Source: Pseudomonas hefeiensis | GTDB taxonomy: Bacteria; Pseudomonadota; Gammaproteobacteria; Pseudomonadales; Pseudomonadaceae | Assembly (NCBI RefSeq): GCF_030687835.1 | Contig: NZ_CP117449.1 | Coordinates: 3,410,001-3,474,000, forward strand | Direction of reading: 5' to 3' | DNA: 64,000 nucleotides | Part shown: positions 7,068 through 42,890 of the stretch, piece by piece | Position numbering within the stretch: position 1 is the stretch's first letter | How the letters are laid out: every line of letters begins with the position of its first letter | The notes under the pieces: model-generated | Told to the model about the DNA's origin: nothing | What the model saw: the letters and a program-made list of their open reading frames with translations, nothing else | Databases searched by the model: none | Position numbers and translations under genes: made by a program

Positions 7068-7334
7068 ATGAACGCCCCGCTCCGTATCAACGAAGCTCTT
7101 TTGATTGCCGACCGCGCCTTTCGTCCATTTCAATGCGTGGCCTGGGCTCCACAAGACGGTAATGGTGAACTGAGCCTGACCGTCATTGACCGCACCAATA
7201 CTCATATTGGCCGCACTCAGATTCCAAGCAGCGCCTATACCGACCCCGTCCAATTGGCCGACCTGTTGAAGCAGGCGCGCGCCGAGTTGAGCCAGGAAGG
7301 TTACGCACTGCAATCTTGGTCCATGCCTGAGTAA
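7068..7334 (+). CDS. Small conserved-looking hypothetical protein
   Basis: 88 residues with no signal peptide or membrane segment. The composition is that of a soluble mixed alpha/beta protein: an amphipathic N-terminal segment, a central strand-rich part (ELSLTVIDRTN) and a C-terminal helix (DPVQLADLLKQARAELSQEG). I do not recognise a family. The start is preceded by a purine-rich TAAGAGATAA. A TTACCGGTAA palindrome follows the stop at 7338-7347. Codon use matches the neighbours, which supports a real gene. Confidence 0.7.
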   Translation: MNAPLRINEALLIADRAFRPFQCVAWAPQDGNGELSLTVIDRTNTHIGRTQIPSSAYTDPVQLADLLKQARAELSQEGYALQSWSMPE

Positions 7335-7521
7335 ATCCTTACCGGTAAAGCTGATGATGGATTGCAGGCTTTGCAGTGGGTCGAAAAGTCAATGTTCTGG
7401 CACGATTCGCTGGTGTATCTGCAGCGTCTGACAGTTGTGCATTGTCCCATTCAGGGATTGAATGTTGCCCTCATGCAGTCGTCGCCCCTACGGGCCTATC
7501 GACGCGCAAGGAGAGGCACGC

Positions 7522-8811: not shown

Positions 8812-8824
8812 GGATTTGCGTGGT

Positions 8825-9646: not shown

Positions 9647-11162
9647 CGAGCGCATGCCAAACGCGGCCATCGCGTGTCAGCAGGTCATCTGCGCACGACG
9701 GGCCATCCTCACCGGCCTTATAGGGCTGGACCGCGGCGTCCTGTTGCCAGGCATCAAGAAACGGTTGCACCGCGCGCCAGCCGTTTTCAATGTTGTCGGC
9801 CCGCTGGAACAAGGTCTGATCGCCGGTCAGGCAATCGTAAATCAGGGTTTCGTAGCCCGTAGACGGTTGCATTTCGAAGAAGTCCTTGTAAGCAAAGCCC
9901 AGTTCAATGTTCGCCATGTTGAGGGCCGGTCCCGGCCGCTTGGCCAGCAGGTCGAACCACATGCCTTCATTGGGCTGGATCTGGATTCTCAAGTACGTCG
10001 GTTGCAGTTCATCGACTTCGGTATCGCGAAACTGCGCATAAGGCGCCGGTTTGAAGCAGATGATGATTTCCGTGTCCCGCACACTCATGCGTTTGCCTGT
10101 GCGCAGGTAAAACGGCACCCCGACCCATCGCCAGTTATCGATCATGACCTTGAGGGCGACGTAGGTTTCGGTGCTGCTGTCGGGCGCGACATTCGCTTCT
10201 TCGCGGTAACCGTTGACCGGCCCACCATCGACGTGGCCTGCGGTGTACTGGCCACGCACCGAGTTGGCGCGGGCCTGTTCTACCGACCAGGGCCGAATGG
10301 CCCCTACCACCTTGGCCTTTTCACCACGCACCGCATCGGCGCCGAACGCGGCCGGTGGCTCCATGGCTACCATCGCCAGTAACTGGAACAGATGGTTAGG
10401 CACCATGTCCCGCAGGGCGCCGGTGTGTTCGTAAAAACTGCCACGGGTTTCCACGCCGACGGTTTCAGCGGCGGTGATTTGCACATGGTCGATGTAGTGA
10501 TTGTTCCAGAAGGCCTCGAACAGACTGTTAGAAAAACGGCTGACCAGAATGTTCTGCACCGTTTCCTTGCCCAGGTAATGGTCGATCCGGTAGATCTGTT
10601 TTTCGCTCATGACTTTGAGCAGGCAGGCATTGAGCGCTTCGGCGGTTTGCAGGTCGGAACCGAACGGTTTCTCGATCACCACTCGCCGGAAGGCATCATC
10701 CTGCTCCTGAAGTAGCCCGGCCGCACCGAGGCGGCGAACAACTTCACTGAAAAAGCGCGGCGCGGTCGCCAGATAGAAAACCGCGTTGCCGGTGCCGCTG
10801 GCGGCGATTTTCGCCGCCAGCGCTGCGTAGGTGCCGTCATCGAGGAAATCACCCTGAACGTAGCTGATGCCCCGGGCCAGGCGGGCCCACAGCACCGGGT
10901 CGAGCGCCCGCTCGGCATCGCCGCCTTTGCTCACCGCCTGGTGACGGATGAAATCCTCGAGTTTGCTGGCGAAGTCCACATCGCTGATAGCGTTATGGTC
11001 GACCCCAATGATCTGCAGGCCATCCCCCAGCAGCCCGTCGCGACTCAGATGGTAAAGCGCCGGCATCAGCAGCCGCTTGACCAGATCACCATGGGCGCCG
11101 AACAGAAACAGCGTGGTCGGCGGCGCGGGTTCTGCTTTGGATTTCCTGCCGATCGAGGTCAT
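9639..11162 (-). CDS. zwf: Glucose-6-phosphate 1-dehydrogenase
   Basis: 507 residues. It oxidises glucose 6-phosphate to 6-phosphogluconolactone with NAD(P)+, feeding the Entner-Doudoroff and pentose phosphate routes. The N-terminal dinucleotide motif is [16 protein letters not shown] (usual form GASGDL). The substrate-binding and catalytic motif RIDHYLGKE is intact, and length is normal for the family. The start overlaps the gnd stop in an ATGA, and the 3' end overlaps the HAD gene. Pseudomonas often has several zwf copies. This copy, tied to gnd, is not the one linked to hexR and pgl, and no 6-phosphogluconolactonase gene is present here. Confidence 0.95.
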
Positions 11163-22095: not shown

Positions 22096-22324
22096 CTGAA
22101 GCTCCAGAATGATTGTTGGAGGTAGCAACAGCGTAAGTAAGTAGGACCAGCAGGCTGATTAAACACCGCTTCACCGTCGCAGCAAAGCGGGCTGGCGCAG
22201 GATTACGCTGATCACCGCGCTCACGTGCGATAACTATGTACCACCTTTGCTCATTGATCGTTGCCTAGTCTGGCCGCTCATCCACGAATGTGCCGCCTCA
22301 CGGCGCCTTGAGCGAGAAGCAACG

Positions 22325-25300
22325 ATGACCATTGAAACCACGCCGCTATTATTTCCTGAGGTATTGGACGCCAATAGTCTGGACGACTTGAACGACTCCC
22401 ACGGATTGACGCAGACAGACCTTGACTGGTTACGCCACGCTTCCCTGCCCAGTCACACGTTACGCGCCGCACAGACGCCCCCCATGTCGGCCGAAACGAT
22501 TCTCCTGGAGATCGAGGGAAAGCCCCCGATCCCGCTGGCCGGCTGCTTTATGCTCAAAGCCCTGCCAGATGCAGATGCACCACAGACCAGGCCGGCATTC
22601 CTCTACACGCCGTATGGTGGAATCAAAAAATTCAACAGCCCCGAATCGCTCGAAGAGGAGATTGCGCAGATACTGGAGAGTCCAGCAGAACGTGACGAAT
22701 TTTTTCGCCTGTTATCAATTACCCAACGCGCCGAACTCAACAGCACATCCGTGATCAGGAGTACCCGGCAGACCATCGACGGTGATGTTTTCACAACCCT
22801 GGTTGAATCGGTTGAATACGCTCAAGGGCAAAATGCCCGGGCAGTGGTGGATGAACTGGTCAAATTACCCTCCCTCAGATCGATGCTTGACGACGCATTG
22901 AACGAGGTACTGTCGAACTTTGATCATAGACAGGTCCGCGTAACAATGAGCACAGGGAGTAGCGCGGGCAGTGCGAATGCAAGTCAGCTGACTAAAAGCA
23001 TGACCCTGAGCGACGCGGTCCTGATCTACTTCCACAATCAGGGGCGGCCCGCCGGGCATGACGTTGATTTCATTCACCCGCAAATAAATGTATCGCCCCA
23101 GAACACGCGCCAGTGGCAGAACCTATTGAAGGTCACCGCCAGCAACCTGATTCCCAAGCTCACCCAGTGCATCGAAACCTACTGGGATGCAACCGCCCCC
23201 TTGCATACCTCACGCCGGCGCTTTCTTTCGCAAGTCCTCAGCGATGCGCTACGAGCGACGATCCTGATCATGCGGGAAAAGAGGCAACTTACTGATGCGC
23301 AAAGCCGGGAGCTGCATCGGCTGTACAGGCCGTCTCGCCCGGACGAGCCGCTTCTGTTCGTCGAGACACTTCGTCTTTGGGAATATGCGCCGCTTTATGT
23401 AGAACCCGCGGGATCCTTGATGATCAGCGGCAAAGGACACTACCTCTATACCCCCAGTCACGGTCTTCAGAAAGTAGACAACTATCTGGGTTTCAAAGAT
23501 GCGCTGCTCGACACACCCGCCCGTGCTGCGCGAAAAGAACAGCTCTACAGCCTGCTGAGCCTGGAAGAGCGCAATCGTTTTCTGCGCCTTGACGATCCCC
23601 AAGTGTCAGGTAAGTCGGTGGCCTGGCCGGTGTTCGGCTCGCTGGCCGATGCAATCATTGGCAAGCAGCTGGAAAACCTTCACTTCGCAATGGAAATGTC
23701 CCGCCAGGGAGATGTAGACGTCCATGCACTCGTGGACAAGGCGCTGGACATACGCACCTTGATCAGCAAAAGCCTGCTCAGTCAAAACGCCGATGGACAT
23801 TGGGGGACGCAACCCGCTTTCTTCGGAGACCTGCGTCCGTCCAACTTCATGGCTGATCAACTGGAGAGGAAGGTCAAGAGCTATCTCAGTGTCGAAGAGG
23901 CTTTGAATGCCGAGTTCAGCCAATTACCACTTTCCAACGAAATCTCACTGCGTTTCGCGTTGAGAGGTCTTCTTCCGGAACTGACCAACGTTTTTTCCCT
24001 GGGAATACGTGCAGAGGCAGAGCTAAGAGAACTCAACGCAACGCTACCGCCCGCCGCGCGCGACCTCATCGCAACTGTCTTTGCCTTTGATTCCGAATAC
24101 CCTGACCGCATTCACCGTGTCGGGGTCAAAGGCTTCCGGCCTGATGTCTATTCGTTGAGGCTGGCATGCACCGAAGAAGGCGAAACGGTCTCCCTGCCCT
24201 TGGCCAATTGTTTCCTGTTGACCGAACGTGGCGGGCTGGACACACCTTATTCGGGGCTGGGAATTCTCTGGACGCCTGCCGAAGGTTTGCAGGCATTTGC
24301 ATCAGTCGAGCTTGCCACAAAGCAATTGAATCGACATTTGCTCGATTCACAAAAGCGCTTTGGTTGGCTCGCCAACCTCCCTCCCTCACACCGCAAGCCC
24401 CATGGGCGCTATCAACTTGATGTATTTGAGCTTATCGAAGACAACGTACTGCTCAATAGAATGAATTCGTTCATCACACTGTTCGAGGCCGAACATGGGT
24501 ACTTGAGCACATTAAAGAGCGGGGACTGGCAGCTGGCAGGGCCTGAGCGGGTAAAAAGCCTTGAAGCATTGCTTGAAAAAGGTGCTCCCACCAATCTGAC
24601 ACGCGCCAGACGCATAGCCCAGGCCATCCGTTGGCAACAGAAACTCCCCGCCTGGCTCGGCACCGCCTCTCTTGAAGAACAAAGCCTGCAGATTGACCTG
24701 CTTGAGCAATACAGAAGCAGTGTGGCCGATGACAAGGATTACCTGGACGGTATCGAGTCGCTACACGGCTATGTGAATAAAAGGCTCAAAGCGCTTCTGG
24801 AGGCACGTTTTGCCGTAAAGGACCTGGATCCCGACACCCTGCAGATCACGCCGAACCTTGCGTTGTCGGGGCCCGCCAGCACCTTGACCGAGTTCGCCCT
24901 GAATCATGCCGATATCACTCAAAAGACCGGATTCAAGGTGTCCTCGACTTCCGGGCGCAAGTTGCCCGACAGCTTGAATGAGAGCGCTGTCAGGCAGATT
25001 CTGTTGTCATTGGACATCCCGACCGCCTATAAAAAAACCGTGCTGGACGAACTCTCCGACACCACAGTCGATGGCCAGAAAAGAAAACAACGATTTCACC
25101 GGCAGTTACCCTGGCAACTGTTGCAGCACGCTCACGCATTGCATCTACAACAGCATCTTTCTCCTGCAGCATTTGACTTGATTCGCCAGGTACTGGACAT
25201 GCCGGACGCCATCGCTCGCCAGGCAGTGGAAGGCGCCAGCGCGTTGATTCGTCCACTGGAGCTGATCAAAACCGAAGGGACTGCAGCGATCAAGGCACTG

Positions 25301-27163
25301 GGACTCTATCTGATCGGATCGAGTAACGATGACAAAGCCCCCCACGTGCTGTACTCCCCCTATCACGCGGGCCATAACTTCACCGAGTTCAAGGACCAGG
25401 CCAGCATCGTTGCCGCACTGAACACGCCGGGAGCCCTTCAGGACCTGTTGATTCGTCGACTTCCCGAAACCCAGCAGGCCACGTTCAAGAACCTGTTCGC
25501 TGCCACGGTCGGCTCCCTATCGGAAATCACCCTGGCCTCCAATCCGATCAAGACAAATCTGTTCGACACGTTGTTCGACGACAATACAACCCTGCTATCC
25601 CACATGTTGACCGCCCAAATGGATAAAAAACGTCAGTTTGACTGGGAAACGGTCCTGCACCTGTTCAGCGCCGGCGTCAAGTTGGTGGGGAGACAATTAC
25701 AGGGCAAACTGACGTTTATCGAAACGCTTTGGGACAGTTATCAAGACTTCAAGGCCTCTGCGCAATCCCTGCAGCAGCATGACTGGAAGGCAGGTTTGCA
25801 CGACTTCATCGCCGGCGCGGCGGAGATGGTCTCCCTGGGTTTCTTGAATCGCGACGACACCTTTGGCCTGCTCGACCCGATAGGCCCCCTCGCGCAGAAC
25901 GCAGCTGCGCCGGCCCCGCCCCATTGGAAGGACATCGCCTCCACCGCGCCAGCGCGCACCAACCTGCGGGCCTTCGAAGCCACGGATGTAAGCCTGCAGG
26001 ATTTGCAGAAAAACGCGATCGACGGCACCTACAGGTCGCCACGATCCGACAAGCTATATGCGCCTGTTGCCGGCATCGTCTTTCAGGTGGCCAAAGCCAA
26101 TCAGGTCTGGCGCGTGGTCCACGAACAGGGAGAGGGCCCAATACTGAGACACTCGCCTGATAGCCAGCAGTGGACCATAGATCCACAACGGCAGACCATT
26201 CGCTACGGCAAGGTGATGTCAACGCTGGCCAGCTCCTACAGCGACTACAAGGCTTCAACGTCGCTCAACATTGAGGCGCGTGGCATGGCGCAAATACGCC
26301 GGAATTACCCGGCCTACGCGAACATGATTGTTCAAGCCCTGGAAGTGGCAAGGTATTACTCGTTCAACGCCCTGCATAATCTCGATCAAGTTAAACACCA
26401 GGTCCTGCCAGGCTCACGGTTGGATACTTTTCTGAAATCGTTCTTTGGGGTGAAAAAAGTCGATGCCAGCCTGATCAAAAAAATACACACTGCGGTCTCG
26501 CCGCTATGCCAGGCATTGGCCGACCCGTCCTGGGAAAAACGCAACGCCAAGCGCCTTGTGATCGGCAGTTTGAAATACACCGACGATAGAGCGACTGCAT
26601 TCGTGCTCGAACCTGAAGCGGCAGGAAGGATCTATCTCACCCAGTATTTCTTCGAGGTCGGGCTGGATTGGTACAAGGACGCGGTACCAGACTCCTTCAA
26701 TGTCGACGCCCACGCCCAGGCCGCGGTGCTTATCCACGAAGTTTCTCATCAGCTTTTCGACACGCTCGACATTGTTTATCTGGACGCGGCACTCCCGTTC
26801 CTGGACTTGATTTCCAACGCCACTCAGTTCGGATATTCAAAATACAATGATCAAAAGGACCAGCAACGCAACGGGCTGTCATTGACCACGCCACGATCCA
26901 AACTGTTCATGGCTTGGGACAGCGCAACCGGCGGGCTCAAGAGCCTGGAGCTTTTCCCTGAGCATCGCGATATGGCCCGGGAGATCCTGAAGATGACCGG
27001 CGCCAGAACCATGAGCGAGGCACGCAGTATCTTTCTGGATCCAGATTCATCGGCAGGACGCATCGACGTTATCTTGCGAAACGCCGATTCCATGACGCTG
27101 CTCATCTGTGAGCTGGGACGTCAGCTTGACTCCCCCCCGATGAGTCCTGCTACCACGTCTTAA
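22325..27163 (+). CDS. Giant dermonecrotic-toxin-like protein with C-terminal HExxH motif
   Basis: 1612 residues, the largest gene of the window. The style matches the large Pseudomonas proteins annotated as dermonecrotic toxin domain (DUF6543) proteins: no signal peptide, long helical stretches and repeated modules. A landmark (L/F)(Y/W)(T/S)P, followed by a Gly-rich turn and helices, recurs near residues 94, 375, 649 and 1010. Around 1230-1290 lies a segment (DGTYRSPRSDKLYAPVAG, then WRVVHEQGEG) common before toxin tips. Near the C-terminus, IHEVSHQLFDTLDIVYLDAA holds a zinc-peptidase-like HExxH (His1471, Glu1472, His1475) with Asp residues just after it, as in aspzincins. Activity and secretion route are unknown; no T6SS, Tc or immunity gene is adjacent. 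The ribosome site is weak. Confidence 0.75.
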   Translation: MTIETTPLLFPEVLDANSLDDLNDSHGLTQTDLDWLRHASLPSHTLRAAQTPPMSAETILLEIEGKPPIPLAGCFMLKALPDADAPQTRPAFLYTPYGGIKKFNSPESLEEEIAQILESPAERDEFFRLLSITQRAELNSTSVIRSTRQTIDGDVFTTLVESVEYAQGQNARAVVDELVKLPSLRSMLDDALNEVLSNFDHRQVRVTMSTGSSAGSANASQLTKSMTLSDAVLIYFHNQGRPAGHDVDFIHPQINVSPQNTRQWQNLLKVTASNLIPKLTQCIETYWDATAPLHTSRRRFLSQVLSDALRATILIMREKRQLTDAQSRELHRLYRPSRPDEPLLFVETLRLWEYAPLYVEPAGSLMISGKGHYLYTPSHGLQKVDNYLGFKDALLDTPARAARKEQLYSLLSLEERNRFLRLDDPQVSGKSVAWPVFGSLADAIIGKQLENLHFAMEMSRQGDVDVHALVDKALDIRTLISKSLLSQNADGHWGTQPAFFGDLRPSNFMADQLERKVKSYLSVEEALNAEFSQLPLSNEISLRFALRGLLPELTNVFSLGIRAEAELRELNATLPPAARDLIATVFAFDSEYPDRIHRVGVKGFRPDVYSLRLACTEEGETVSLPLANCFLLTERGGLDTPYSGLGILWTPAEGLQAFASVELATKQLNRHLLDSQKRFGWLANLPPSHRKPHGRYQLDVFELIEDNVLLNRMNSFITLFEAEHGYLSTLKSGDWQLAGPERVKSLEALLEKGAPTNLTRARRIAQAIRWQQKLPAWLGTASLEEQSLQIDLLEQYRSSVADDKDYLDGIESLHGYVNKRLKALLEARFAVKDLDPDTLQITPNLALSGPASTLTEFALNHADITQKTGFKVSSTSGRKLPDSLNESAVRQILLSLDIPTAYKKTVLDELSDTTVDGQKRKQRFHRQLPWQLLQHAHALHLQQHLSPAAFDLIRQVLDMPDAIARQAVEGASALIRPLELIKTEGTAAIKALGLYLIGSSNDDKAPHVLYSPYHAGHNFTEFKDQASIVAALNTPGALQDLLIRRLPETQQATFKNLFAATVGSLSEITLASNPIKTNLFDTLFDDNTTLLSHMLTAQMDKKRQFDWETVLHLFSAGVKLVGRQLQGKLTFIETLWDSYQDFKASAQSLQQHDWKAGLHDFIAGAAEMVSLGFLNRDDTFGLLDPIGPLAQNAAAPAPPHWKDIASTAPARTNLRAFEATDVSLQDLQKNAIDGTYRSPRSDKLYAPVAGIVFQVAKANQVWRVVHEQGEGPILRHSPDSQQWTIDPQRQTIRYGKVMSTLASSYSDYKASTSLNIEARGMAQIRRNYPAYANMIVQALEVARYYSFNALHNLDQVKHQVLPGSRLDTFLKSFFGVKKVDASLIKKIHTAVSPLCQALADPSWEKRNAKRLVIGSLKYTDDRATAFVLEPEAAGRIYLTQYFFEVGLDWYKDAVPDSFNVDAHAQAAVLIHEVSHQLFDTLDIVYLDAALPFLDLISNATQFGYSKYNDQKDQQRNGLSLTTPRSKLFMAWDSATGGLKSLELFPEHRDMAREILKMTGARTMSEARSIFLDPDSSAGRIDVILRNADSMTLLICELGRQLDSPPMSPATTS

Positions 27164-28409: not shown

Positions 28410-30758
28410 TTATTGCTTGGCCACCCTGCCCGCCTCATCAGGCTCACGGATAATCACGGCCTGATAGTGCGGATCAGCTTTGATCTGCTGCTCGGTAAAT
28501 GGCAGCACACTCCATTGTTTCTTCGAAAATGCCTGGGTCTGGTCCGCCGAATACGGCGATGCGGGGTCGCTGGAAATGGAAAATGCCAACAGACCTTGAG
28601 CCTGGGGTCCCTTGCTATCAAAACTCACCACTTGCAGGTAGCTGGTGCCGCTGACCACTTCCCGCTTGCCGTTGGCACCCGGTACGCTCTGAATCGCGTT
28701 ATAGATTCCCAACTCGCCGGGACCGCCGTGGATTGGTGTCTGCCGGCTGCCACTGCTGGCAACCTGCACATCTTGCCAGCGGCTGCCCTTCGGCAATCCG
28801 GCGGCCTTCACAGACGCCTGCGAGGCCAGCATGGCCTGACGCACAGCCTTATGCACCGGGGCACGCTCAATCGCCAGGCCACTAGGAGTATGTCGTGGAT
28901 CTCGCGGATCGAACGGGACACGCCACGAATCAGGTACACCCTGCACCTGCTCCATAATGTGCTGGAAATGAATGAACCCCAATCCGCTGTTCAAACCGGC
29001 TGTTCGATCCCAGGCCTTGAGGCCGTTGCAAACCTCGGTCAACGCCAAGGCATCGCTCCCCAAGTCACCGGCACAAAAGCCAAGCAGGTCCGGCATCACC
29101 TGATCAGCGAGGTAGACCTGATCGTCCATGACCATGCGCTGCAAGTCATTGACCTTTACCGGCCCGTCCTTGGCCAGTTGACCCAGCCGCTGCAGGGCAA
29201 AACGCGCCCGCAGGCCCAACGGCTGGTCCTGCTGGCTGATCACCGGCGAATAACCGGACAAGGGTTTTGCGGGGTTGACCATCCACGCCGAATCGTTGGA
29301 GTTCTGCACATAATCGCGGCGTAACAACTGCGGTAGCTTGTCGGAGGCATAGATGCCTTTCTGTACGACTTTGGGATCAATATCCCAGGCGCATTCGCCA
29401 CGCGAACCGTCCAGTACGATGAGTTGCAGCCCTGCCCGCGGGTCGCTGCAGCGGGCCAACTTGTCGGCGTCAACATTCGGCACCACCGACACGTTCATGT
29501 AGAGGCTTTGCCCCTGATCGTCCACCGCCAGGGTGTTGACCCAGGGAATGCCCTGGATCTTATGGACCGCATTCTGCAAATCCCTGAGCGTGACGGCCTT
29601 GTTCATGGCGTACCACTGGGCCAGCACCCGATCATTTTCCAGGTTCGCATCGCGCAGGCTGTAGGCGAACTTGTCATCCCAGTCCAGCCGGCCGGGCCAT
29701 TGCACGATCGGGCCGAACTGCGAGCCGTAGACCACCCGCGAAACCGTCTTCACCTGGCCATCGGGTTGTTGGATGTCCACCGCGACCATCTGTTGGCTCA
29801 TCGGTACCGATTGACCATCAAGCAGATAGCGAGTCGGGTCTTTTGGGTCGAGTTGCAAACGGTACAGAGTGAAATGTTTGGAAGTATCGACGGTATGGGT
29901 CCAGGCCAGGTGCTGGCTGAAACCGATGTTGATCACCGGCAGGCCTGGCAGGGCCGCGCCCATGACGTCCAGTTTGCCGGGGATGGTCAGGTGCATCTGG
30001 TAAAAACGCATGCCCCCCAACCATGGGAAGTGTGGGTTCGCCAGCAACATCCCACGCCCGTTGAAGGAGCGCTCACTGCCGATGGCGACCGCGTTACTGC
30101 CGCGCTCCAGGGCGAAACGCTGCTGCCGGGTCGCTGCGCCTGCAAAACCTGCCATCGGCTCGCCAGCCACCGCCGTCGGTTGGGGCGGCTGCGCACCCGC
30201 CAGGGCTTCGGCGAACTGGCCGATGCCACCTTCCACCAACAGGCGCCGGGTCAGTTTGACCAGGTCCAGCGCGGTGATCGGCCGTACCCACTCACTGGCG
30301 CATTGCTCGGGCAGGCCGACGGCCTTGCGTTCGGCCAGCGCGCGGTTGAAACCCGCGACATAGCCTTCGACCAGTTGCTGTACTTGAGGCGTCTGGGCCT
30401 GCCAGAAACCGGAAACGGCTCGCGGCGTGTTGAGCCAGTTGAAAAACACATCGCTGACGCGGTTCTCCCGCTGTTCGAGCGTGACCTGCTCCGGGCCGAA
30501 GTAACGCGAGCGCTGGCCGTTGACCGTGACGATCTCATTGGCCAGCAGGCATAAATTATCCTCAGCGTACGCGTACCCGATGCCGTAGCCCAACCCGCGC
30601 TCATCCTGAGCCCGGATATGCGGCACACCAAAACTGGTGCGACGGATCTCGGCGCTGGCCGGTTCTACATCGCCTTGAGCGCCGGCAACGGAGCTGAGCC
30701 CCAGGCCCATCCCTAAAAACACGCCTGCGAGACAAAACCTCGATAACTGCCCGGACAT
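28410..30758 (-). CDS. pvdQ: Pyoverdine maturation acylase PvdQ
   Basis: 782 residues. An Ntn-hydrolase precursor exported to the periplasm (signal peptide ending near AGA, residue 27). Self-cleavage before Ser221 in ERGSNAVAIGSER would give the alpha and beta chains, and Ser221 becomes the nucleophile. Strong resemblance to P. aeruginosa PvdQ runs through LLANPHFPW, RFYQMHLTIPG and GFSQHLAWTHTVDTS. PvdQ removes the fatty acid from acylated pyoverdine precursors and can also cleave long-chain acyl-homoserine lactones. AGGAG is better spaced for a GTG two codons upstream (30764) than for the chosen ATG, so either start is possible. No other pyoverdine genes are in the window. Confidence 0.95.
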   Translation of the reverse strand: MSGQLSRFCLAGVFLGMGLGLSSVAGAQGDVEPASAEIRRTSFGVPHIRAQDERGLGYGIGYAYAEDNLCLLANEIVTVNGQRSRYFGPEQVTLEQRENRVSDVFFNWLNTPRAVSGFWQAQTPQVQQLVEGYVAGFNRALAERKAVGLPEQCASEWVRPITALDLVKLTRRLLVEGGIGQFAEALAGAQPPQPTAVAGEPMAGFAGAATRQQRFALERGSNAVAIGSERSFNGRGMLLANPHFPWLGGMRFYQMHLTIPGKLDVMGAALPGLPVINIGFSQHLAWTHTVDTSKHFTLYRLQLDPKDPTRYLLDGQSVPMSQQMVAVDIQQPDGQVKTVSRVVYGSQFGPIVQWPGRLDWDDKFAYSLRDANLENDRVLAQWYAMNKAVTLRDLQNAVHKIQGIPWVNTLAVDDQGQSLYMNVSVVPNVDADKLARCSDPRAGLQLIVLDGSRGECAWDIDPKVVQKGIYASDKLPQLLRRDYVQNSNDSAWMVNPAKPLSGYSPVISQQDQPLGLRARFALQRLGQLAKDGPVKVNDLQRMVMDDQVYLADQVMPDLLGFCAGDLGSDALALTEVCNGLKAWDRTAGLNSGLGFIHFQHIMEQVQGVPDSWRVPFDPRDPRHTPSGLAIERAPVHKAVRQAMLASQASVKAAGLPKGSRWQDVQVASSGSRQTPIHGGPGELGIYNAIQSVPGANGKREVVSGTSYLQVVSFDSKGPQAQGLLAFSISSDPASPYSADQTQAFSKKQWSVLPFTEQQIKADPHYQAVIIREPDEAGRVAKQ

Positions 30759-31057
30759 TCTCACGTTCACTCCTGATCGATCACTTTCAAAAACCAGGAC
30801 GGCTACCGTTACGGCAGTAAAAAACACTTGGCCCGGCCTGGGAACCCACATACCGCGTGCCTGACCGGAATGTGCATCCCTTGAAAACGAACCGGATGAA
30901 AAAAAATTAATCGCCTGGCAACCGCCTGACTACGGGGCTTGATCATATCCAGGCAAATTTTTCAGCTTTTGGCCTTCATGATTGGTCACGTTCGTTCGTC
31001 CTATTACAGGAGAGTATCCGTGACCCTTTTCTGATCAGGCTGGTAAGGAGTTTTTGC

Positions 31058-31438
31058 ATGCATGACGCGCGTCAGCCCATGGAGGGTAAGCCCAGGTCGA
31101 CCGGCGTTCCGGCGACAGCCACCAACAACCTGTTCGACAGGCCGGCAGAACGAGGTTGCAATGAGCACATCAGGCTTTTGCTCAAGAGCTTCGGCCTCAG
31201 GACCAGCCTGATTCGCCTCAAAGTCATCGACGCATTGCTCAAGGCCGCCGGTGAAAACCGCAGCCTGGGTGTACGAGGCGTGCATAGCCAACTGCTGGGG
31301 CTGGACATTCCGTTGTCCTTCCTCAGCGTGCGCGAGGTATTGAAGCGTCTGTGCAGCGAGGGTGTCGTCACCCTTAACGCCGATAAAACCTACAGCCTGC
31401 ACCGCAAGGCCATGGCCGTGCTTCAGGGCGCAGAGTGA
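31058..31438 (+). CDS. Fur-like winged-helix protein
   Basis: 126 residues. After a variable 35-residue start comes a segment that reads like the DNA-binding half of a Fur-family protein: LLLKSFGLRTSLIRLKVIDA, then GVHSQLLGLDIPLSFLSVRE with VLKRLCSEGVV forming the helix-turn-helix and wing. It then ends, so the metal-binding and dimer domain of Fur is missing. It may be a short regulator or partner of a full Fur protein. AAGGAG precedes the ATG. It is divergent from pvdQ, which is iron-regulated in other pseudomonads; whether this protein takes part is inference. Confidence 0.7.
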   Translation: MHDARQPMEGKPRSTGVPATATNNLFDRPAERGCNEHIRLLLKSFGLRTSLIRLKVIDALLKAAGENRSLGVRGVHSQLLGLDIPLSFLSVREVLKRLCSEGVVTLNADKTYSLHRKAMAVLQGAE

Positions 31439-32001: not shown

Positions 32002-32031
32002 AAATGTCCGCCCCTTGGTGGACATTTTTCT
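32002..32031 (+). terminator. Intrinsic terminator upstream of the Lux-like operon
   Basis: AAATGTCC (32002-32009) pairs exactly with GGACATTT (32020-32027), with additional inner G/C pairs, and is followed by TTTCTT. It probably ends the small-lipoprotein transcript and insulates the operon that starts at 32155. Confidence 0.8.
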
Positions 32032-32154: not shown

Positions 32155-33390
32155 ATGCAAAACTTGCTGACAACTCTTTCGCCAATACGATTGACAGGCT
32201 TCTGCCTGGCTATCGCTCTTTTCGAACTATTGACTTACATGGCCAGCGACCTAGTCATGCCAGCCATGCTCGCGGTGACCCAGGAACTGGATGCGCCCGC
32301 AGACCAGATTCCCTACGCCTTCAATCTGTACCTGTTGGGCGGCGTCTTGCTGCCGTGGCTGATCGGTCCACTGTCGGATCGCTATGGACGTCGCTCATTC
32401 ATGCTCGCCGGGTGTGCCGGCTTTGTGCTGGCATGTGCGGCGATCACCCTGGTCACCCATATGCAGGGATTCAATGGGCTTCGTCTGATCCAGGGCATGG
32501 GCCTGGGCTTCGTGATTGCGGTCAGTTACCCCGCCATACAGGAAGTCTTCAACGAATCGGACGCCGTGAAAGTCATGGCGTTGCTGGGCAATCTCGCGCT
32601 CCTCTCGCCCTTGCTGGGGCCGCTGCTGGGTGGGTTGCTGCTGCAATGGCTGTCCTGGCGCGAGCTGTTTGTACTGCTGGCGGGCCTTGGCGCGGTGAGC
32701 TGGCTGACCTTATGGGCATTCATGCCCCGACACCCTGGCCTGGCGCCTCCCCGCGCCAGGCAGCCTACGCAGCAGCCGTTCAAGCTGCGCACGCTCATCG
32801 GGCGGTATGGCGCGCTGCTGAGTCATGCCGGATTCATGGCCGCCTGCGTGGCACTGGGGCTGATGAGCCTGCCGCTGATTGCCTGGATCGGTCTGTCCCC
32901 GCTGCTACTGATCCAGGGGCAGGGCCTGTCGCCCTTGGTGTACGGCCTGTGGCAGATCCCGGTGTTCTCGGCCGTGATCCTTGGCAATCTCCTGCTGAAC
33001 CGCCTGGTGGAGCGGCTGGGCGTGCGCGGGGTATTGCGCTACAGCCTGTGGCCCTTGTCTACCGGACTCATCGCACTGGTGATTGCCAGTCAGTTCAACC
33101 TGTGTCTATCCGCGCTGGTCAGCGGCCTGGCGCTCTATGCCCTGGGGCTCGGCATGGGCAATGCGGCGTTGTATCGATTGGCCCTGTTCGCCAGCGACGA
33201 CAGCAAAGGGCTGGTCTCGGCCATGGTCGGGATGATTTCCATCGCCGTGATGAGCACAGCCGGATCGCTGCTCGCGCTACTGGGCGCCGGAGCGAGCCTG
33301 AACGCCTTTGCCTTGATGGTCGGCATCGCGGGGCTCAGTTGCCTTGTGGCGTTGCGCCTGTTCCTGTCGCGCCCGCCCGCTCTCGTCTGA
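32155..33390 (+). CDS. MdfA-like MFS exporter
   Basis: 411 residues from the chosen ATG, with about 12 membrane helices. Helix 1 carries Glu24 and Asp32 (FELLTYMASDLVMPAM), the acidic pair that binds cationic drugs in E. coli MdfA, and the MFS motif A follows helix 2 (GPLSDRYGRRSFML). Proton-driven export of a small, perhaps cationic, molecule is likely. It is the first gene of a tight five-gene operon with acyl-activation and reduction genes, so its cargo may be that pathway's product. A TTG 75 bases upstream in frame could also start translation, but the extra residues are not membrane-like. Confidence 0.82.
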   Translation: MQNLLTTLSPIRLTGFCLAIALFELLTYMASDLVMPAMLAVTQELDAPADQIPYAFNLYLLGGVLLPWLIGPLSDRYGRRSFMLAGCAGFVLACAAITLVTHMQGFNGLRLIQGMGLGFVIAVSYPAIQEVFNESDAVKVMALLGNLALLSPLLGPLLGGLLLQWLSWRELFVLLAGLGAVSWLTLWAFMPRHPGLAPPRARQPTQQPFKLRTLIGRYGALLSHAGFMAACVALGLMSLPLIAWIGLSPLLLIQGQGLSPLVYGLWQIPVFSAVILGNLLLNRLVERLGVRGVLRYSLWPLSTGLIALVIASQFNLCLSALVSGLALYALGLGMGNAALYRLALFASDDSKGLVSAMVGMISIAVMSTAGSLLALLGAGASLNAFALMVGIAGLSCLVALRLFLSRPPALV

Positions 33391-33417
33391 AAATCCCCTC
33401 CCTGAGGAACGATACCC

Positions 33418-34545
33418 ATGATTCATTTTCCCCACGCCGATGCGCTGTGTGCATTGGCGCAACCCTACGATCCCGACTCAGTACCTGCTGGTCTGTTTGA
33501 TCGGGCCATGGCCCAGATCAGCCTGTTCCATTGCCACCACACCCCCGGCTACGAACACTGGCTCAACGCCAACGGCCTGGCTGCCGAGGACCTGGAGCAT
33601 TTGACTGACTGGTCGCGCTTGCCGCCCATCTACGCCAACTACTTCAAGCAGCGCTTGCTGCTCAGCCCCACAGGCGAGAACGCGCTGGAGCTGACATCCT
33701 CCGGCACCAGCGGCCAGAAAAGCCGAATGCGCTATGACGAACGCAGCATGGCAGCGGCCCAGGGCATGGTGGCGCGTATCTTTGAGCATTACGGCTGGTC
33801 CACACCGGACTCGCCCTGCAACTACCTGTTGTTCAGCCACGAACCCGAGAAGGTCAATCACGTCGGCACCGCCCATACGGACCAATTCTTACGCAGCTTC
33901 GCGCCGGCCAATCGGGTTTTCCATGCGCTGCGGCGCACTGGAAAAGGTCATGAGTTCGATGTCTTTGGCGCGATCCGGGCCCTTCAGGAGTTCGCCGAGG
34001 AAGGCTTGCCGGTGAGGATCTTCGGCTTCCCGGCGCTGCTCTGTCATGCACTTGAGCGCATGCGAGAAACCGCAACGCCAGACCTCAAGCTTGCCCCCGA
34101 CTCCCTGGTGTTTCTGGGAGGCGGCTGGAAAAAGCAGGCCGCCCAAGAGATCCCCCGCCACGAGGTCTATGAGCACATTACCCGGCAACTGGGCATTGAG
34201 CCCCACCGATGCCGCGATGGTTACGGTGCGGTCGAGCACGCAGTGCCGTACATCGAATGCGCACACCACAGGTTTCATGTGCCGGTCTATTCGAAAGCTT
34301 TCGTGCGTCACCCCTCGGACTTCAGTGTCCAGCCCTTCGGTGCGACGGGGTTGTTGTCATTCGTCTCACCTTACATCTCTTCCAGTCCCGCCCATGCCGT
34401 GGTGATGAGCGACCTGGCAACCCTGCATCCGGCCAATTGTGAGTGCGGCTTGAACACTCAATGGTTCGAACTGCACGGTCGGGCCGGCACCAGTGCCAGC
34501 CGAAGCTGCGCCATGGCCGCCGCCGAAATGATCAAGGAGAATTGA
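33418..34545 (+). CDS. LuxE-like acyl-protein synthetase
   Basis: 375 residues, the normal length of LuxE. The ATP-binding loop is LTSSGTSGQKSRMRYDERS. The C-terminal SCAMAAAEM places a Cys at residue 364, the position at which LuxE of luminous bacteria carries its acyl thioester. The expected reaction is acid plus ATP to acyl-AMP, then transfer to this Cys and on to a LuxC partner. That partner is encoded one base downstream. No luciferase or LuxD genes are near, so the acid is not destined for light. GAGGAA precedes the ATG. Acid specificity cannot be read from the sequence. Confidence 0.85.
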   Translation: MIHFPHADALCALAQPYDPDSVPAGLFDRAMAQISLFHCHHTPGYEHWLNANGLAAEDLEHLTDWSRLPPIYANYFKQRLLLSPTGENALELTSSGTSGQKSRMRYDERSMAAAQGMVARIFEHYGWSTPDSPCNYLLFSHEPEKVNHVGTAHTDQFLRSFAPANRVFHALRRTGKGHEFDVFGAIRALQEFAEEGLPVRIFGFPALLCHALERMRETATPDLKLAPDSLVFLGGGWKKQAAQEIPRHEVYEHITRQLGIEPHRCRDGYGAVEHAVPYIECAHHRFHVPVYSKAFVRHPSDFSVQPFGATGLLSFVSPYISSSPAHAVVMSDLATLHPANCECGLNTQWFELHGRAGTSASRSCAMAAAEMIKEN

Positions 34546-34546
34546 T

Positions 34547-36958
34547 ATGTATCTCATCAACGGCCAATTGCAGGCTGATCTGCCACTCGACGCAGCCCTT
34601 GAACGCTTGCAGACGCAACTGCCCACGCTTCTGGGCGCACCGCCGCCCAGCGATAGGGTGCTCGATTGTGCGCAGGCGTTCGCACAGACGCTGCGGGACG
34701 CAGGACAGACTCCGTTTCTGGACGATGACCAACGCCAGGCCCTGATCGCCTTCTGCGAACGCAAGCACTTGAGCCGCAAACTTGAACGGGAGCTGGGGGC
34801 GGACGCGCGCTCGCTGCGCCGAATCGACTATTGCGATGGCCCTTTCGAAAGCTGGCAGCCCCTGGGGCTGGTGGTGCATGTCACCCCTGGCAATGCACCT
34901 TTGCTGGGATTTTTCGCGGCCCTAGAAAGCCTGCTGGCGGGCAACGTCAACTGGCTGCGACCCAGCACACGCGATGCAGACCTGACTGCGCAGGTGCTAG
35001 CGGCGTTCCTCAATTGCGACCCAAGTGGCCAACTGCACGATTACGTTGCGGTGCTGCCAGTGCCCTACCACGAGTGCCGGCGTCTCTTCGCACTGGCCCA
35101 AGGCGTCAGCGCCTGGGGTGGTGAGACCGCACTCAAGACCATGCGTAAGCAAATTCCAAGCGGCTGCCGCTGGATCGATTGGGGGCATCGCATCAGCTTC
35201 GCCTATGTCACGCCACAGGCCGCCAGCCAGCAGGCACTGGACAGTCTGGTGGATGAGGTCTGCCGACTCGATCAGCAAGCCTGTTCCAGCCCCCAGTGGC
35301 TGTTGGTGGACAGCGACGAACCGGCTCAGATGCAGGCACTGGGTAACGCCCTGGCCGCCGCCTTCGAACGACGGACCGGGCAATGGCCGGCGTTGCCAAC
35401 CACTGCAGCCGAAGCGTGTGAAATCACCACCCGCACGGCACTTGCCCGACTTGACCATAGCTTTGCAGAACAAACCGGCCAGATTTGGGAAGGACATGGC
35501 TGGCGCATTGTTTGGGAGCATCACCGCGACCTGTCGCCATCGCCGCTGTTTCGCACACTTTTGTTACGGCCGGTACCCCATGGGCTGATTACCGAAACCC
35601 TGCTGCCCTGGCGGAATGTGTTGCAGAGCTGCGCGCTGATCTGTGAACCGCAACGGGCGCCTGAACTGGCACGTCGCGTATTAGCCGCCGGCGTGACCCG
35701 CATCTCGGCAACCGCAGACATCCAGCAAGGCTATGAGGGCGAGCCTCATGACGGTGTCTACGCGCTACAACGTTTGAGTCGCCGGGTGTCGGTTGGTCTT
35801 GAACCTGAGGTCGCAAGTCTTCGTGTGACACTGGACGCGCCGCCGGCAACGATACCCATTTCTCCCTCGACGCCGATCATGGACAAAGCGGCATTCCTGG
35901 CGCTGCCTGCCGCACCCCAGGCACAGTTGTTCTTCCGCTCAGGTGGTAGCAGCGGCGCACCGGTGCTGTCGCCCTACAGTTACCGCGATTTTGATCGCCA
36001 CATGCGGGCCGCCGCCGATGGACTACGCGCAGCCGGCCTGGATCCGGCGAAAGATCGGGTCATGAATCTGTTTTATGGTGGCAATCTCTACGGCGGTTTC
36101 TTCAGTTTCTCAAAGATACTGGAGCACATGAATGTTGTGCACTACCCCATGGGTGCTACGTCAGACGTGGACTTTGAAGAGATCGCACGGATGATCGTCG
36201 CCCACAAGGTCAACACCCTGGTCGGCATGCCAAGTACCTTGCAGCGCCTCTTTTCCAGCCAGCTAAAAACCCTTCAAGGCTACGGCGGTGTGCGCAAAGT
36301 CATGCTGGGCGGCGAGCGCCTGGGGCAAGGCTGCCGTCAATTGCTTCAGGACTGCGGCGCCACAAGTATCCGCTCAGCCATCTACGGCAGTGTCGACGCG
36401 GGCCCCCTTGGCCATGCCTGCACTGCCAGCGGCGACGGTGTTTTCCATCTCATGGAAGACATTCAACACTTGGAGATCGTCCAGCTGGAACAGGACGCTC
36501 CGGTCGAGCCGGGGGAAACCGGACGGCTCCTGTTCACTTCTCGCATACGCCATGCGCAACCCCTTCACCGTTATGAAGTCGGCGATTGCGGGCGCTGGCT
36601 TCCCGAGCCCTGCCCCTGTGGCCTGGAGTCACCCCGGTTCGAATTGCGCCAGCGCCACGGCTCCCTGATACGCATCGTGACGTACTTAATCAATACCCAC
36701 GAGCTGGCCGAACAGGCGCAAACAGCCATTCAAATCGTGCTTGATTACCACAGCAGCGGCTGCGAACGCCTGCTGATTCGCGCCGATGGCGATGCGCAAA
36801 CGGTTCGGAGCAGGGTCATGGACCTCGAACTGCTGTCCACCCTGGTGGAGTCCGAAATGCTCGTACTGGATATTCAATCCTGTCCGGCAGCAAGTTTCGA
36901 ACATAACAAACACAGCGGCAAAGTTCCGCTGGTGATTGACTGCAGAATATCCGCTTGA
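34547..36958 (+). CDS. LuxC-like acyl reductase fused to an ANL (PaaK-like) ligase domain
   Basis: 803 residues in one uninterrupted frame. Residues about 1-430 are a LuxC-type reductase: LVVHVTPGNAPLLGFFAALE, VSAWGGETALKTMRK, and the thioester Cys246 in DQQACSSPQW, the usual LuxC active-site surrounding. A linker near 430-450 leads to an adenylating domain with LFFRSGGSSGAPVLSPYSYR as P-loop, GMPSTLQRLF, YGSVDAGPLGH and YEVGDCGRW. A C-terminal lid ends in HSGKVPLVIDCR, where Lys is probably catalytic. I infer one polypeptide that both activates an acid and reduces an acyl thioester with NADPH. Such a fusion is not a standard lux gene. The ribosome site lies within the end of the preceding gene. 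Confidence 0.82.
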   Translation: MYLINGQLQADLPLDAALERLQTQLPTLLGAPPPSDRVLDCAQAFAQTLRDAGQTPFLDDDQRQALIAFCERKHLSRKLERELGADARSLRRIDYCDGPFESWQPLGLVVHVTPGNAPLLGFFAALESLLAGNVNWLRPSTRDADLTAQVLAAFLNCDPSGQLHDYVAVLPVPYHECRRLFALAQGVSAWGGETALKTMRKQIPSGCRWIDWGHRISFAYVTPQAASQQALDSLVDEVCRLDQQACSSPQWLLVDSDEPAQMQALGNALAAAFERRTGQWPALPTTAAEACEITTRTALARLDHSFAEQTGQIWEGHGWRIVWEHHRDLSPSPLFRTLLLRPVPHGLITETLLPWRNVLQSCALICEPQRAPELARRVLAAGVTRISATADIQQGYEGEPHDGVYALQRLSRRVSVGLEPEVASLRVTLDAPPATIPISPSTPIMDKAAFLALPAAPQAQLFFRSGGSSGAPVLSPYSYRDFDRHMRAAADGLRAAGLDPAKDRVMNLFYGGNLYGGFFSFSKILEHMNVVHYPMGATSDVDFEEIARMIVAHKVNTLVGMPSTLQRLFSSQLKTLQGYGGVRKVMLGGERLGQGCRQLLQDCGATSIRSAIYGSVDAGPLGHACTASGDGVFHLMEDIQHLEIVQLEQDAPVEPGETGRLLFTSRIRHAQPLHRYEVGDCGRWLPEPCPCGLESPRFELRQRHGSLIRIVTYLINTHELAEQAQTAIQIVLDYHSSGCERLLIRADGDAQTVRSRVMDLELLSTLVESEMLVLDIQSCPAASFEHNKHSGKVPLVIDCRISA

Positions 36959-37011
36959 TTGTTTTTCCCGTGTAAATGAATAAGCGGACGTTAAAGTCCG
37001 AGAGAATCCTG

Positions 37012-38286
37012 ATGAGCATCTCTTTACCATTCGAACAATGGCTCGACCATATTCGTACGCATTCGAAGTTCTACCGCAAGTACTTACGGCATTTACCAGC
37101 ACACAATTGCGCTTTGGAGGATGTCCCCATCGTCGACGTCGCCGACTACTGGGCCGGCAGTCATGACCTGGACAATTGGGACGTACTGACTGACAAAGTA
37201 GAAGACGCACTGATCTACAAAACCGGCGGTACGACCAGCCAGGGAAAACTGTCGGTGTACACCCACACGGAATGGCAGCGGATGCTCGACTGCTTCGGTC
37301 AGAGCCTGTCAACACAACTGAAGGCAGGCGATCGAATCGCCAACCTGTTTTTTTCCGGAGACCTGTACGCCAGTTTCCTGTTTATTCATGGTGCACTTGG
37401 CAAAGTCGATGTAGCGATCACCGAATTCCCCTTCACCGGCTCGGTGGATCTCGACGTGCTGAGCGAGGCCGTGACCGGTCACCGCATCAATGTACTGGCC
37501 GGTGTGCCCGCGCATCTGCTGGCGTTTGCCGACCACTTGGACCAACAGGGGCGCACGCTGCCAGGCATCACTACCGTACTGTTCGGTGGGGAAAACCTGT
37601 TCGAGCGTCAATTGCCTGCGTTGCAACGCGCCTTCCCGCAGGCACGCTTCGCGTCCATCGGCTATGCCAGCGTGGACGCAGGGCTGGTGGGCGCCAGTGC
37701 ACCGGACTGCAACCTCGGCGAACACCGCCTGTTCGACGAGCAGATAAGGGTGGAGATCATTGATGAACTGAGCGGTGAGGTCATCCAGGCATGTGATCGG
37801 CCTGGCAATCTGGTGGTGACCAACTTCAGCCGGACCCTGATGCCCATCGTGCGCTATCCGGTGGGTGACCGGGCGTGCTGGCGCGAGCCGGTCGGCACCC
37901 CACGGCGCAAGTTCGCGCTTCAGGGCCGCAGCGCGAAAAGCCAGCGGGTGCGGGTAGGCGTCTTCTCGTTGTTTTCGCAGGAGATCAGCGACATCATCCG
38001 CGGCGTTGGCGGAGACCTTCAATGGCAATTGATCATTGAGCACGTACAAAACAACGACCGCGTATTACTCAAATGGGTGCCTGGAGGGCAAACCCAGGCT
38101 TGCCAATCACTCTCCATGACATTGAAAGCCGCGCTGACCCAACAGTATCCGGGTATCGAGCAACTCGACCTGCACATTCAGGCCTGCGGTCTACAAGAGT
38201 TGGAACGCCATCCGCGCTCCGGCAAGCACCTGTCGATCATCGACCGCCGCATCTATGCTCCGCTGACAGCGAGGCACGCCGGATGA
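37012..38286 (+). CDS. PaaK-like AMP-forming ligase
   Basis: 424 residues. Adenylate-forming enzyme of the phenylacetate-CoA ligase/LuxE branch: ATP loop IYKTGGTTSQGKLSVYTHTE, GVPAHLLAFAD, FGGENLF, YASVDAGLVGA, YPVGDRACW and a C-terminal PRSGKHLSIIDRR with the expected lid Lys. It is related to the C-terminal domain of the preceding fusion protein (shared VDAGLxGxxxPDxxL-type features) and may have arisen by duplication. Substrate unknown. The start was set at the second in-frame ATG; an ATG at 36976 lacks any ribosome site. A small hairpin (36985-37000) lies between the genes. The end overlaps the next start in ATGA. Confidence 0.82.
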   Translation: MSISLPFEQWLDHIRTHSKFYRKYLRHLPAHNCALEDVPIVDVADYWAGSHDLDNWDVLTDKVEDALIYKTGGTTSQGKLSVYTHTEWQRMLDCFGQSLSTQLKAGDRIANLFFSGDLYASFLFIHGALGKVDVAITEFPFTGSVDLDVLSEAVTGHRINVLAGVPAHLLAFADHLDQQGRTLPGITTVLFGGENLFERQLPALQRAFPQARFASIGYASVDAGLVGASAPDCNLGEHRLFDEQIRVEIIDELSGEVIQACDRPGNLVVTNFSRTLMPIVRYPVGDRACWREPVGTPRRKFALQGRSAKSQRVRVGVFSLFSQEISDIIRGVGGDLQWQLIIEHVQNNDRVLLKWVPGGQTQACQSLSMTLKAALTQQYPGIEQLDLHIQACGLQELERHPRSGKHLSIIDRRIYAPLTARHAG

Positions 38287-39227
38287 GCAGCGTGGTCATC
38301 CGGCCGTTCCGGCCCACGGATGGCGTCGGGATCAGCGAATTGTTCCGCCGGGTTTACGGCGATCACTACGTCTCGCCAGACGTCTACCTGCCTCACATGA
38401 TTGGCCAGCACAACCTGCTGAACCGTTGGCACTCCGTGGTCGCCCTGGTGAACGATCGCGTGGTCGGCCATGCTGCATTGTGCCGGCCGACAGCCGAGGG
38501 TGAAGACGCGGAGTTGGCACTGATCGCGGTAGATCCGGCGGTGCAAGGCGGCCAGATTGCGACGCGCCTGGGCCAGCGTTTACTGGATAGCTGCCAGGAC
38601 CTTGGGCTTGCCAGGCTGTCGATCAAGCAAGTCACCAGCCACTTCTACAGCCAGCGGTTGGCACAACGACTGGGTTTCCATGACACCGGGCTGTTGCCTG
38701 ACCATGTGCCCTCGCCCTTTGCCACTGTCCACGCCGAAACCATCGTGGTCGGCAGCCAAGTGATCAGCGACAATCATCGTCCCCTGCCGCAGCTTCAGTG
38801 GCCCGCGGCATGCCAATGGCTGATGCAGCCATTGGCGTCGCTGTTTGGCACCTCGCCCGATGCGCCCTTACCTTCGGCACAGCCTTTTCAAATCAGACAA
38901 CTGCCCGGAAGGGTCGACATTGTCGCCGGGCACATAGACCTTCGCCTGGCCGGACAACTGCTGCGCTTACCGGCCCATTGGTCGCTTTCGGTGCGACTCG
39001 GACTGCGCCAGCAATTTGCCGACGATTATCAGCGGTTGATCGACGCCGGATTCGCTTTCACCGGGATCATGCCTGCCGAAGGTAACCCCGGCTGGCAGGC
39101 GCTGTTTCACCGTGGCGCCCTGGCTCACCCACTCACCTTGCACTCGGACCCGATGCAACGGCTCCACGAACACGTGCAAGCCCAAGCACACATCTGGTGG
39201 GGCGCTCAGGCAGGTTCGGCGACTTGA
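38283..39227 (+). CDS. Two-part GNAT N-acetyltransferase
   Basis: 314 residues. The first half is a clear GNAT domain: VIRPFRPTDGVGISELFRRV, LIAVDPAVQGGQIATRLGQR with the acetyl-CoA loop, and SHFYSQRLAQRLGF. The second half (about 165-314) resembles nothing I can name; its strands and helices might be a degenerate second GNAT or a substrate-binding part. It is the last gene of the Lux-like operon and starts within the stop codon of the ligase gene, so production is coupled. It probably acylates a pathway intermediate, for self-protection or product tailoring; that is inference. Confidence 0.78.
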   Translation: MSSVVIRPFRPTDGVGISELFRRVYGDHYVSPDVYLPHMIGQHNLLNRWHSVVALVNDRVVGHAALCRPTAEGEDAELALIAVDPAVQGGQIATRLGQRLLDSCQDLGLARLSIKQVTSHFYSQRLAQRLGFHDTGLLPDHVPSPFATVHAETIVVGSQVISDNHRPLPQLQWPAACQWLMQPLASLFGTSPDAPLPSAQPFQIRQLPGRVDIVAGHIDLRLAGQLLRLPAHWSLSVRLGLRQQFADDYQRLIDAGFAFTGIMPAEGNPGWQALFHRGALAHPLTLHSDPMQRLHEHVQAQAHIWWGAQAGSAT

Positions 39228-39272
39228 AGACGGGTTTGCCGCTAAAGCGCCCCAGGCTGTTTGCGCACGGAC

Positions 39273-39363
39273 CTGTGGGAGCGAGCCTGCTCGCGATGAC
39301 GGCGGCAAGGTCGACACTGGCCAAGCTGACCCACCGCGATCGCGAGCAGGCTCGCTCCCACAG
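39273..39363. repeat. REPIN after the Lux-like operon
   Basis: Inverted pair of REP sequences. The left arm starts CTGTGGGAGCGAGCCTGCTC at 39273. The right arm, GCGAGCAGGCTCGCTCCCAC, ends near 39362. Same family as the copies at 5.3 kb and 42.5 kb. It separates the operon from the DUF411 gene. Confidence 0.9.
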
Positions 39364-39514
39364 GGTTCAGCAGTGGCTGGCGAATTTGCGCCGGACTTCC
39401 AATCAGCATCACTCCCAACCTGACAGTTCTGTAATCCGCCCCTCAGCCCGCTGTCAGCTCGCACTCGCTACTCTGGTATCCTCCTCCCAAACCGTTCGAT
39501 ACGAGACTGCCCCC

Positions 39515-42526: not shown

Positions 42527-42890
42527 CTGTGGGAGCGAGCCTGCTCGCGATAGCGCTGGGTCAGCTTGCATCCATCCTGAATGTGCCGCCACCATCGCGG
42601 GCAAGCCTTGCTCCCACACCGGTTTTTCAGGGTTAACCGATTCGGTATCCACCGCAAATACCCTTGTGGGAGCGAGCCTGCTCGCGAAAGCGCTGGGTCA
42701 GCTTGCATCCATCCTGAATGTGCCGCCGTCATCGCGGGCAAGCCTTGCTCCCACACTGTTTTTTTCAGGGTTAACCGATTCGGTGTTCACCGCAAACCCC
42801 TTGTGGGAGCGGGCTTGCTCGCGAAAGCGCTCTGTCAGTCACATATCCACTCACTGATACACCGCGTTCGCGAGCAAACCCACTCCCACA
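42527..42890. repeat. Tandem array of three REPINs with 137-base period
   Basis: Inverted REP pairs start at 42527, 42664 and 42801. The first two are followed by nearly the same spacer (TTTTCAGGGTTAACCGATTC in both), so the whole REPIN-plus-spacer unit has been duplicated. The third copy is more diverged (GGGCTTGCTCG and TTCGCGAGCAAACCC arms). It fills the gap between the dehydrogenase gene and the glgA leader. Confidence 0.92.

Follow-up and report, generated by a model that had tools for sequence, protein, structure and literature searches.

An operon that makes leupeptin (Ac-Leu-Leu-argininal) without nonribosomal peptide synthetases (NRPSs) was reportedly described by Li et al. in 2020. 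Leupeptin is a small protease-inhibiting peptide aldehyde. Excerpts of the leup literature, on which we draw throughout, give leupeptin and a lysine analogue as the products of the leup operon of Klebsiella, which, though silent in usual media, can be elicited with N-acetylneuraminic acid (Neu5Ac), and list a leucine-arginine pyrazinone at m/z 252.1819 (PMC11480411). A second excerpt gives the position of leupABCD, which spans 5.8 kb, in CAV1374, with an adjacent transporter, in the Klebsiella oxytoca complex (K. michiganensis), and lists a primer pair, leupA_f and leupB_r, that yields a 1,235-bp product, together with primers flanking the leup insertion site (PMC8283571); a third reports that the leupeptin of Xenorhabdus bovienii (SS-2004) is made by separate AMP-dependent ligases and a reductase (PMC11212599). 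Here we compare with these systems a five-gene operon of Pseudomonas hefeiensis that lies within a stretch of 64,000 nucleotides (the window; contig NZ_CP117449.1, positions 3,410,001 to 3,474,000). The operon shows homology and colinearity with leupABCD and the neighboring transporter gene, and is very probably a leup operon, predicted to dispense with NRPS modules in making a leupeptin-type protease inhibitor (an N-acetyl-dipeptidyl-argininal or a closely related compound) and to export it. It looks like a known pathway found in a Pseudomonas, not a new pathway. No leup operon of Pseudomonas is reported in the excerpts of PMC11480411 and PMC8283571, and Li et al. 2020 may list it. An initial annotation of the window had proposed acid activation, reduction by LuxE and LuxC, possible acetylation and export, chemistry that agrees with the leup pathway; it had found no named product to match, and the leup operon now supplies one, being a described pathway of the kind that the annotation had counted as evidence against its own view.

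Gene content and homology with the leup operon

Relatives on Salmonella plasmids and on a Streptomyces plasmid, where the genes run AraC regulator, PaaK, MFS, GNAT, LuxE, LuxC-ANL, first pointed to leupeptin. The leupA_f site is present in one of 20 sampled genomes of a Klebsiella-like genus (G1170, an exact match), and in the corresponding locus, L122, both leupA_f and leupB_r match exactly and their predicted product has precisely the published length of 1,235 bp. Both insertion-site flanking primers also match L122 exactly (positions 2443 and 10258 when the locus is reversed), and it is by these primer matches alone that L122 is assigned to the leup operon. The window has the same five genes in the same order (Table 1), with amino acid identities to L122 of 48% for the MFS exporter, 61% for LuxE, 50% for the LuxC-ANL fusion, 51% for the PaaK-like ligase and 42% for the GNAT. 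Its four leupABCD counterparts cover 5,810 bp, as against the published 5.8 kb, and its exporter corresponds to the gene that immediately precedes leupA within the published insertion site. As a yardstick, L122 and Xenorhabdus budapestensis share 66% (LuxE), 52% (LuxC-ANL), 49% (PaaK) and 40% (GNAT) identity, so that the distance between the window and L122 is about the same as that between L122 and Xenorhabdus; the window and X. budapestensis share 61%, 52%, 45% and 36%, respectively.

Table 1. Positions of the operon, its flanking elements and the compared loci (window coordinates unless another locus is named).
Feature	Position	Strand	Match or remark
MFS exporter, MdfA-like	32155-33390	+	Pfam MFS_1, E 8e-36
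LuxE-type acyl-protein synthetase (leupA counterpart)	33418-34545	+	Pfam LuxE, 3.9e-25; PDB 7xc6 chain E
LuxC-ANL fusion, 803 aa (leupB counterpart)	34547-36958	+	Pfam LuxC, 1.7e-102; AMP-binding, 1.7e-8
Stand-alone PaaK-like ANL ligase (leupC counterpart)	37012-38286	+	Pfam AMP-binding, 3e-8; PDB 2y27
GNAT acetyltransferase (leupD counterpart)	38283-39227	+	Pfam Acetyltransf_1, 2e-11
Inverted-repeat hairpin, possible terminator	32002-32027		11-bp arms, 4-nt loop; upstream of operon
REPIN	39272-39364		34-nt arms 39272-39305 / 39331-39364, 91% complementary; downstream of operon
L122 transporter	3015-4274 (reversed locus)		between flanking primers
L122 LuxE (leupA)	4302-5438 (reversed locus)		between flanking primers
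L122 LuxC-ANL (leupB)	5440-7848 (reversed locus)		between flanking primers
L122 PaaK-like (leupC)	7884-9224 (reversed locus)		between flanking primers
L122 GNAT (leupD)	9221-10138 (reversed locus)		between flanking primers
Streptomyces sp. NBC_00158 plasmid cluster	9818-17259 (L097)		order PaaK-like ligase, MFS, GNAT, LuxE, LuxC-ANL

The Pfam matches agree with the five assignments of the initial annotation, and the coordinates reproduce its spacing, with gaps of 27 (MFS/LuxE), 1 (LuxE/LuxC-ANL) and 53 bases (LuxC-ANL/PaaK-like) and a 4-base overlap between the PaaK-like and GNAT genes; an alternative in-frame ATG at 36976 would place the PaaK-like start 17 instead of 53 bases from the fusion gene. 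All five reading frames are open in the window. Within the fusion protein, the LuxC domain occupies residues 34–413 and the AMP-binding domain residues 533–664 (Pfam), and the protein also aligns with PDB 7xc6 chain A and with PaaK structures; LuxE and LuxC thus each match a chain of the solved Lux complex 7xc6. The MdfA subfamily model, as the annotation had it, is the top NCBIfam match of the exporter, at 318 bits under a curated cut-off of 439. The equivalog cut-offs are missed by LuxE (58.1 against 550 bits) and LuxC (56.5 against 750 bits), and the PaaK score also lies far under; the ligase matches both the DVU_1553 family and PaaK in NCBIfam, each below its cut-off. No carrier or condensation domain was found in a Pfam scan of the five operon proteins. 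Nor is there a luciferase family among their Pfam matches, in line with the annotation's description of an operon without luciferase, a search confined to these five proteins of the genome. The AlphaFold model of the GNAT has a mean predicted local distance difference test score (pLDDT) of 88, residues 2–168 being GNAT-like and the N-terminal half forming a confident GNAT fold; of the two parts that the annotation had described, the GNAT assignment thus covers the N-terminal one, and the C-terminal half is left unassigned. The top-ranked structure matches of this N-terminal domain include phosphinothricin and protein N-alpha acetyltransferases, enzymes that act on alpha-amines, but because most GNATs score similarly these matches are weak evidence for the substrate.

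Four candidate catalytic residues are conserved. LuxE Cys364 is present in 86 of 87 loci, with a gap in the remaining one, and LuxC Cys246 and Lys792 of the fusion's ANL module are present in all 87. Lys417 of the PaaK-like ligase is found in all 82 rows compared, a count that leaves out five of the 87 in which the wrong frame was picked (L005, L015, L043, L054 and L070). Each lysine lies within a conserved GK stretch near the C-terminus. The catalytic roles of the four residues are presumed from Lux and ANL enzymology.

Conservation and distribution

A one-genome-per-species scan with the LuxC-ANL fusion was used to retrieve the best 80 of 128 relatives, which comprise 64 Pseudomonas, 13 Xenorhabdus, one Parachitinimonas and two enterobacterial metagenome-assembled genomes (MAGs). 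Among these, the five genes are matched in the order A-B-C-D-E (from exporter, A, to GNAT, E) in 64 of 64 Pseudomonas loci, one gene being matched in two pieces in L012 and L024, and this co-occurrence is more than expected by chance. The scattering of homologues that the annotation had named as contrary evidence is not seen, and the five genes stay together in the Pseudomonas loci retrieved. Gene order was compared across 84 proteobacterial loci, among them two Salmonella plasmids, the Klebsiella-like locus and the window itself; it is A-B-C-D-E in 70, B-C-D-E in 13 and B-C-D-E-A in one; the 70 include the two Salmonella plasmids, whose exporter is a 121-aa open reading frame (ORF) only, and in the single B-C-D-E-A locus (L067) the downstream MFS protein is only 26% identical. 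A relative at 96% identity (L002) has the same genes. Neighbouring genes vary among genera, although many are common to the Pseudomonas loci, and the operon itself is therefore the unit.

The fusion gene is present in 75 of 398 Pseudomonas genomes, counted by eye as 73 single full-length matches plus two genomes (G281 and G294) in which the gene is split over two matches. Any fusion match at E≤0.001 is found in 177 of the 398, the weaker ones being mostly to the ANL domain alone. With a Salmonella plasmid protein as the query (E≤1e-60), the gene was found in one of 369 sampled Gammaproteobacteria, this being the window's own genome, and in 15 of 392 genomes of the family of one enterobacterial MAG. 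The flanks of the operon were sought in 10 Pseudomonas genomes lacking the fusion, and the intervals were inspected in two of them: the two flanks are 3.65 kb apart in G011 and 10.3 kb apart in G017, compared with 7.65 kb in the window, and neither intervening sequence has a match to the operon. A LuxC-ANL tree of 87 rows, built by a quick method and with three Streptomyces proteins trimmed to their last 810 residues (their open frames extend too far upstream), places all 65 Pseudomonas rows, the window included, in one clade.

The predicted product and its alternatives

Gene content, gene order, homology and the conserved candidate catalytic residues are established directly here, and by homology each step of a pathway can be proposed. 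The GNAT would use acetyl-CoA to acetylate the first amino acid, which in leupeptin is leucine, at its alpha-amine, after which the ANL module of the fusion and the PaaK-like ligase would each adenylate one carboxylate and each form one amide bond. LuxE would adenylate the acetylated tripeptide at its C-terminal carboxylate, hold the acyl group on Cys364 and pass the acyl thioester to Cys246 of LuxC, which would reduce it with NADPH to the aldehyde, and the MFS protein would export the product. On the best reading of the three adenylating modules, two form amide bonds and one activates the acid for reduction, as befits a peptide aldehyde pathway, and the module count fits leupeptin, with one acetyl group, two amide bonds and one reduction. 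The scheme also fits early enzymology of leupeptin in Streptomyces, which reportedly described the synthesis of acetyl-leucine, a leupeptin acid synthetase dependent on ATP, and a reductase. Both leupeptin and a close analogue of it are candidate products.

Several observations weigh against a leupeptin-type product. The Pseudomonas clade lies beside, not within, the group of Klebsiella, Salmonella, Parachitinimonas and Xenorhabdus, and the product is therefore not phylogenetically bracketed by known producers, in a tree that does not include the operons proven in X. bovienii and Photorhabdus. The LuxE of the window is farther from that of Klebsiella (61%) than the Xenorhabdus LuxE is (66%), and the window is farther than L122 from X. 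budapestensis in both PaaK (45%) and GNAT (36%). The GNAT is also the least conserved part (42% to leupD), so substrate choice may differ, and the Pseudomonas product itself is predicted from the genes. It is a serious, if less favored, possibility that this operon belongs to the leup family yet makes a peptide aldehyde other than leupeptin, with a different N-acyl group, different residues or lysinal at the C-terminus. The contrast between the best conserved LuxE and the worst conserved GNAT would fit such a product, as would the lack of bracketing, and the Klebsiella operon already yields a lysine analogue; however, the divergence between the window and Klebsiella is about that between Klebsiella and Xenorhabdus. 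This alternative partly overlaps with the leupeptin-type assignment, which admits a close analogue.

Two other explanations depart further from the leup operon. A fatty-acid or aryl-aldehyde pathway akin to bioluminescence LuxCDE, with ligases forming CoA esters, might be suspected where Pfam and NCBIfam name the parts LuxE, LuxC and PaaK-like and where LuxE and LuxC match a solved Lux complex, but it is very improbable given the colinear homology with leupABCD and NCBIfam matches for LuxE, LuxC and PaaK that are far under the curated cut-offs. Slighter still is the chance that the operon is decayed and has been retained by chance. Signs of decay do occur among its relatives, including an internal TGA in one of the 15 enterobacterial-family matches, the divided fusion gene of G281 and G294, and the short exporter ORF of the Salmonella plasmids, whereas in the window five frames are open with their candidate catalytic residues retained, and L002 has kept the same genes. 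We favor the assignment to leup. If the operon works like its relatives, an inhibitor of the leupeptin type, acting on trypsin- and papain-like proteases, could be secreted by about a fifth (75 of 398) of the Pseudomonas species sampled; this would bear on their life with plants, insects and competitors and would be relevant to protease assays run with carrier Pseudomonas strains.

Neighbors, plasmid versions and known systems

The initial annotation described the operon as lying between a terminator and a REPIN. The upstream hairpin is real, but a terminator scan scored it on the minus strand only, and the region around it has 16 terminator-like sites compared with 8.4 ± 3.7 in shuffles. The downstream REPIN is borne out by its paired arms, and its motif occurs six times in the window and not at all in shuffles; other copies of the repetitive extragenic palindromic (REP) motif are at 5293 and 5356 (5293–5378) and at 42529 and 42666 (42529–42688), with one inverted pair and two direct. 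A penicillin-amidase-family acylase (28410–30851, minus strand) adjoins the operon, and its family is present in 51 of 81 loci; it is probably an unrelated conserved neighbor, since seven of 10 operon-free Pseudomonas genomes also carry the family. Of the 81 loci, 50 have upstream of the operon a member of the family of a 126-aa ORF (31058–31438, plus strand) that has no Pfam match, and a 1638-aa protein (22247–27163, plus strand) has a Pfam match to the ToxA_N (dermonecrotic toxin N-terminal) domain.

Three Streptomyces plasmids (L096, L097 and L098) carry a rearranged leup-like cluster, with BLAST identities to the window of 49–57% for LuxE, 39–41% for LuxC-ANL and 33–37% for PaaK; these counterparts lie near a GNAT recognized by a proteobacterial GNAT profile. 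In NBC_00158 the annotated MFS gene is in the same run as the leup-like genes, and downstream of the run a single kinase gene is followed by three I36 peptidase-inhibitor genes on the opposite strand. Leupeptins were first described in actinomycetes (a reference within the excerpt of PMC11212599), and Streptomyces leupeptin is grouped with NRPS products in the excerpt of PMC10548850, to which the plasmid loci are therefore a testable alternative, as candidate leupeptin genes of actinomycetes; the leupeptin producer named there is S. roseus ATCC 31245. We tentatively suggest that the leup core may be an old carrier-free peptide-aldehyde toolkit of Pseudomonadota and Actinomycetota, that its rearranged version could underlie Streptomyces leupeptin, and that Pseudomonas lineages may have diversified the core toward undescribed peptide aldehydes. 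The actinobacterial version is less expected than the Pseudomonas one and is the most interesting by-product of the analysis. The leup core (LuxE, LuxC-ANL, PaaK and GNAT) is also found on conjugative IncF plasmids of Salmonella enterica (CP054717.1 and CP053580.1; L094 and L095); the gene table of CP053580.1, which is incomplete, lists no GNAT, and the GNAT ORF found there is 226 aa compared with 294.

Of the known systems, the Streptomyces peptide-aldehyde clusters (antipain, MAPI and others) would share the product class, if our reading of the window is right, but use NRPS modules (excerpts of PMC11212599 and PMC10548850), none of which is present in the five window proteins. The luxCDE fatty acid reductase shares the LuxE acyl-protein synthetase and LuxC reductase families (7xc6), whereas the window operon is without luciferase, has LuxC fused to an ANL module and has an extra ligase, a GNAT and an exporter. 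The 13 Xenorhabdus loci, from species other than X. bovienii, share the order LuxE, LuxC-ANL, PaaK and GNAT and differ in that no homologous exporter gene immediately precedes LuxE in the loci compared. The leup operon of the Klebsiella oxytoca complex differs in its chromosomal neighbors, and Pseudomonas forms its own clade with a product that is predicted; the likeness nonetheless extends to all five genes and their order, to identities of 42–61% and to the LuxC-ANL fusion itself.

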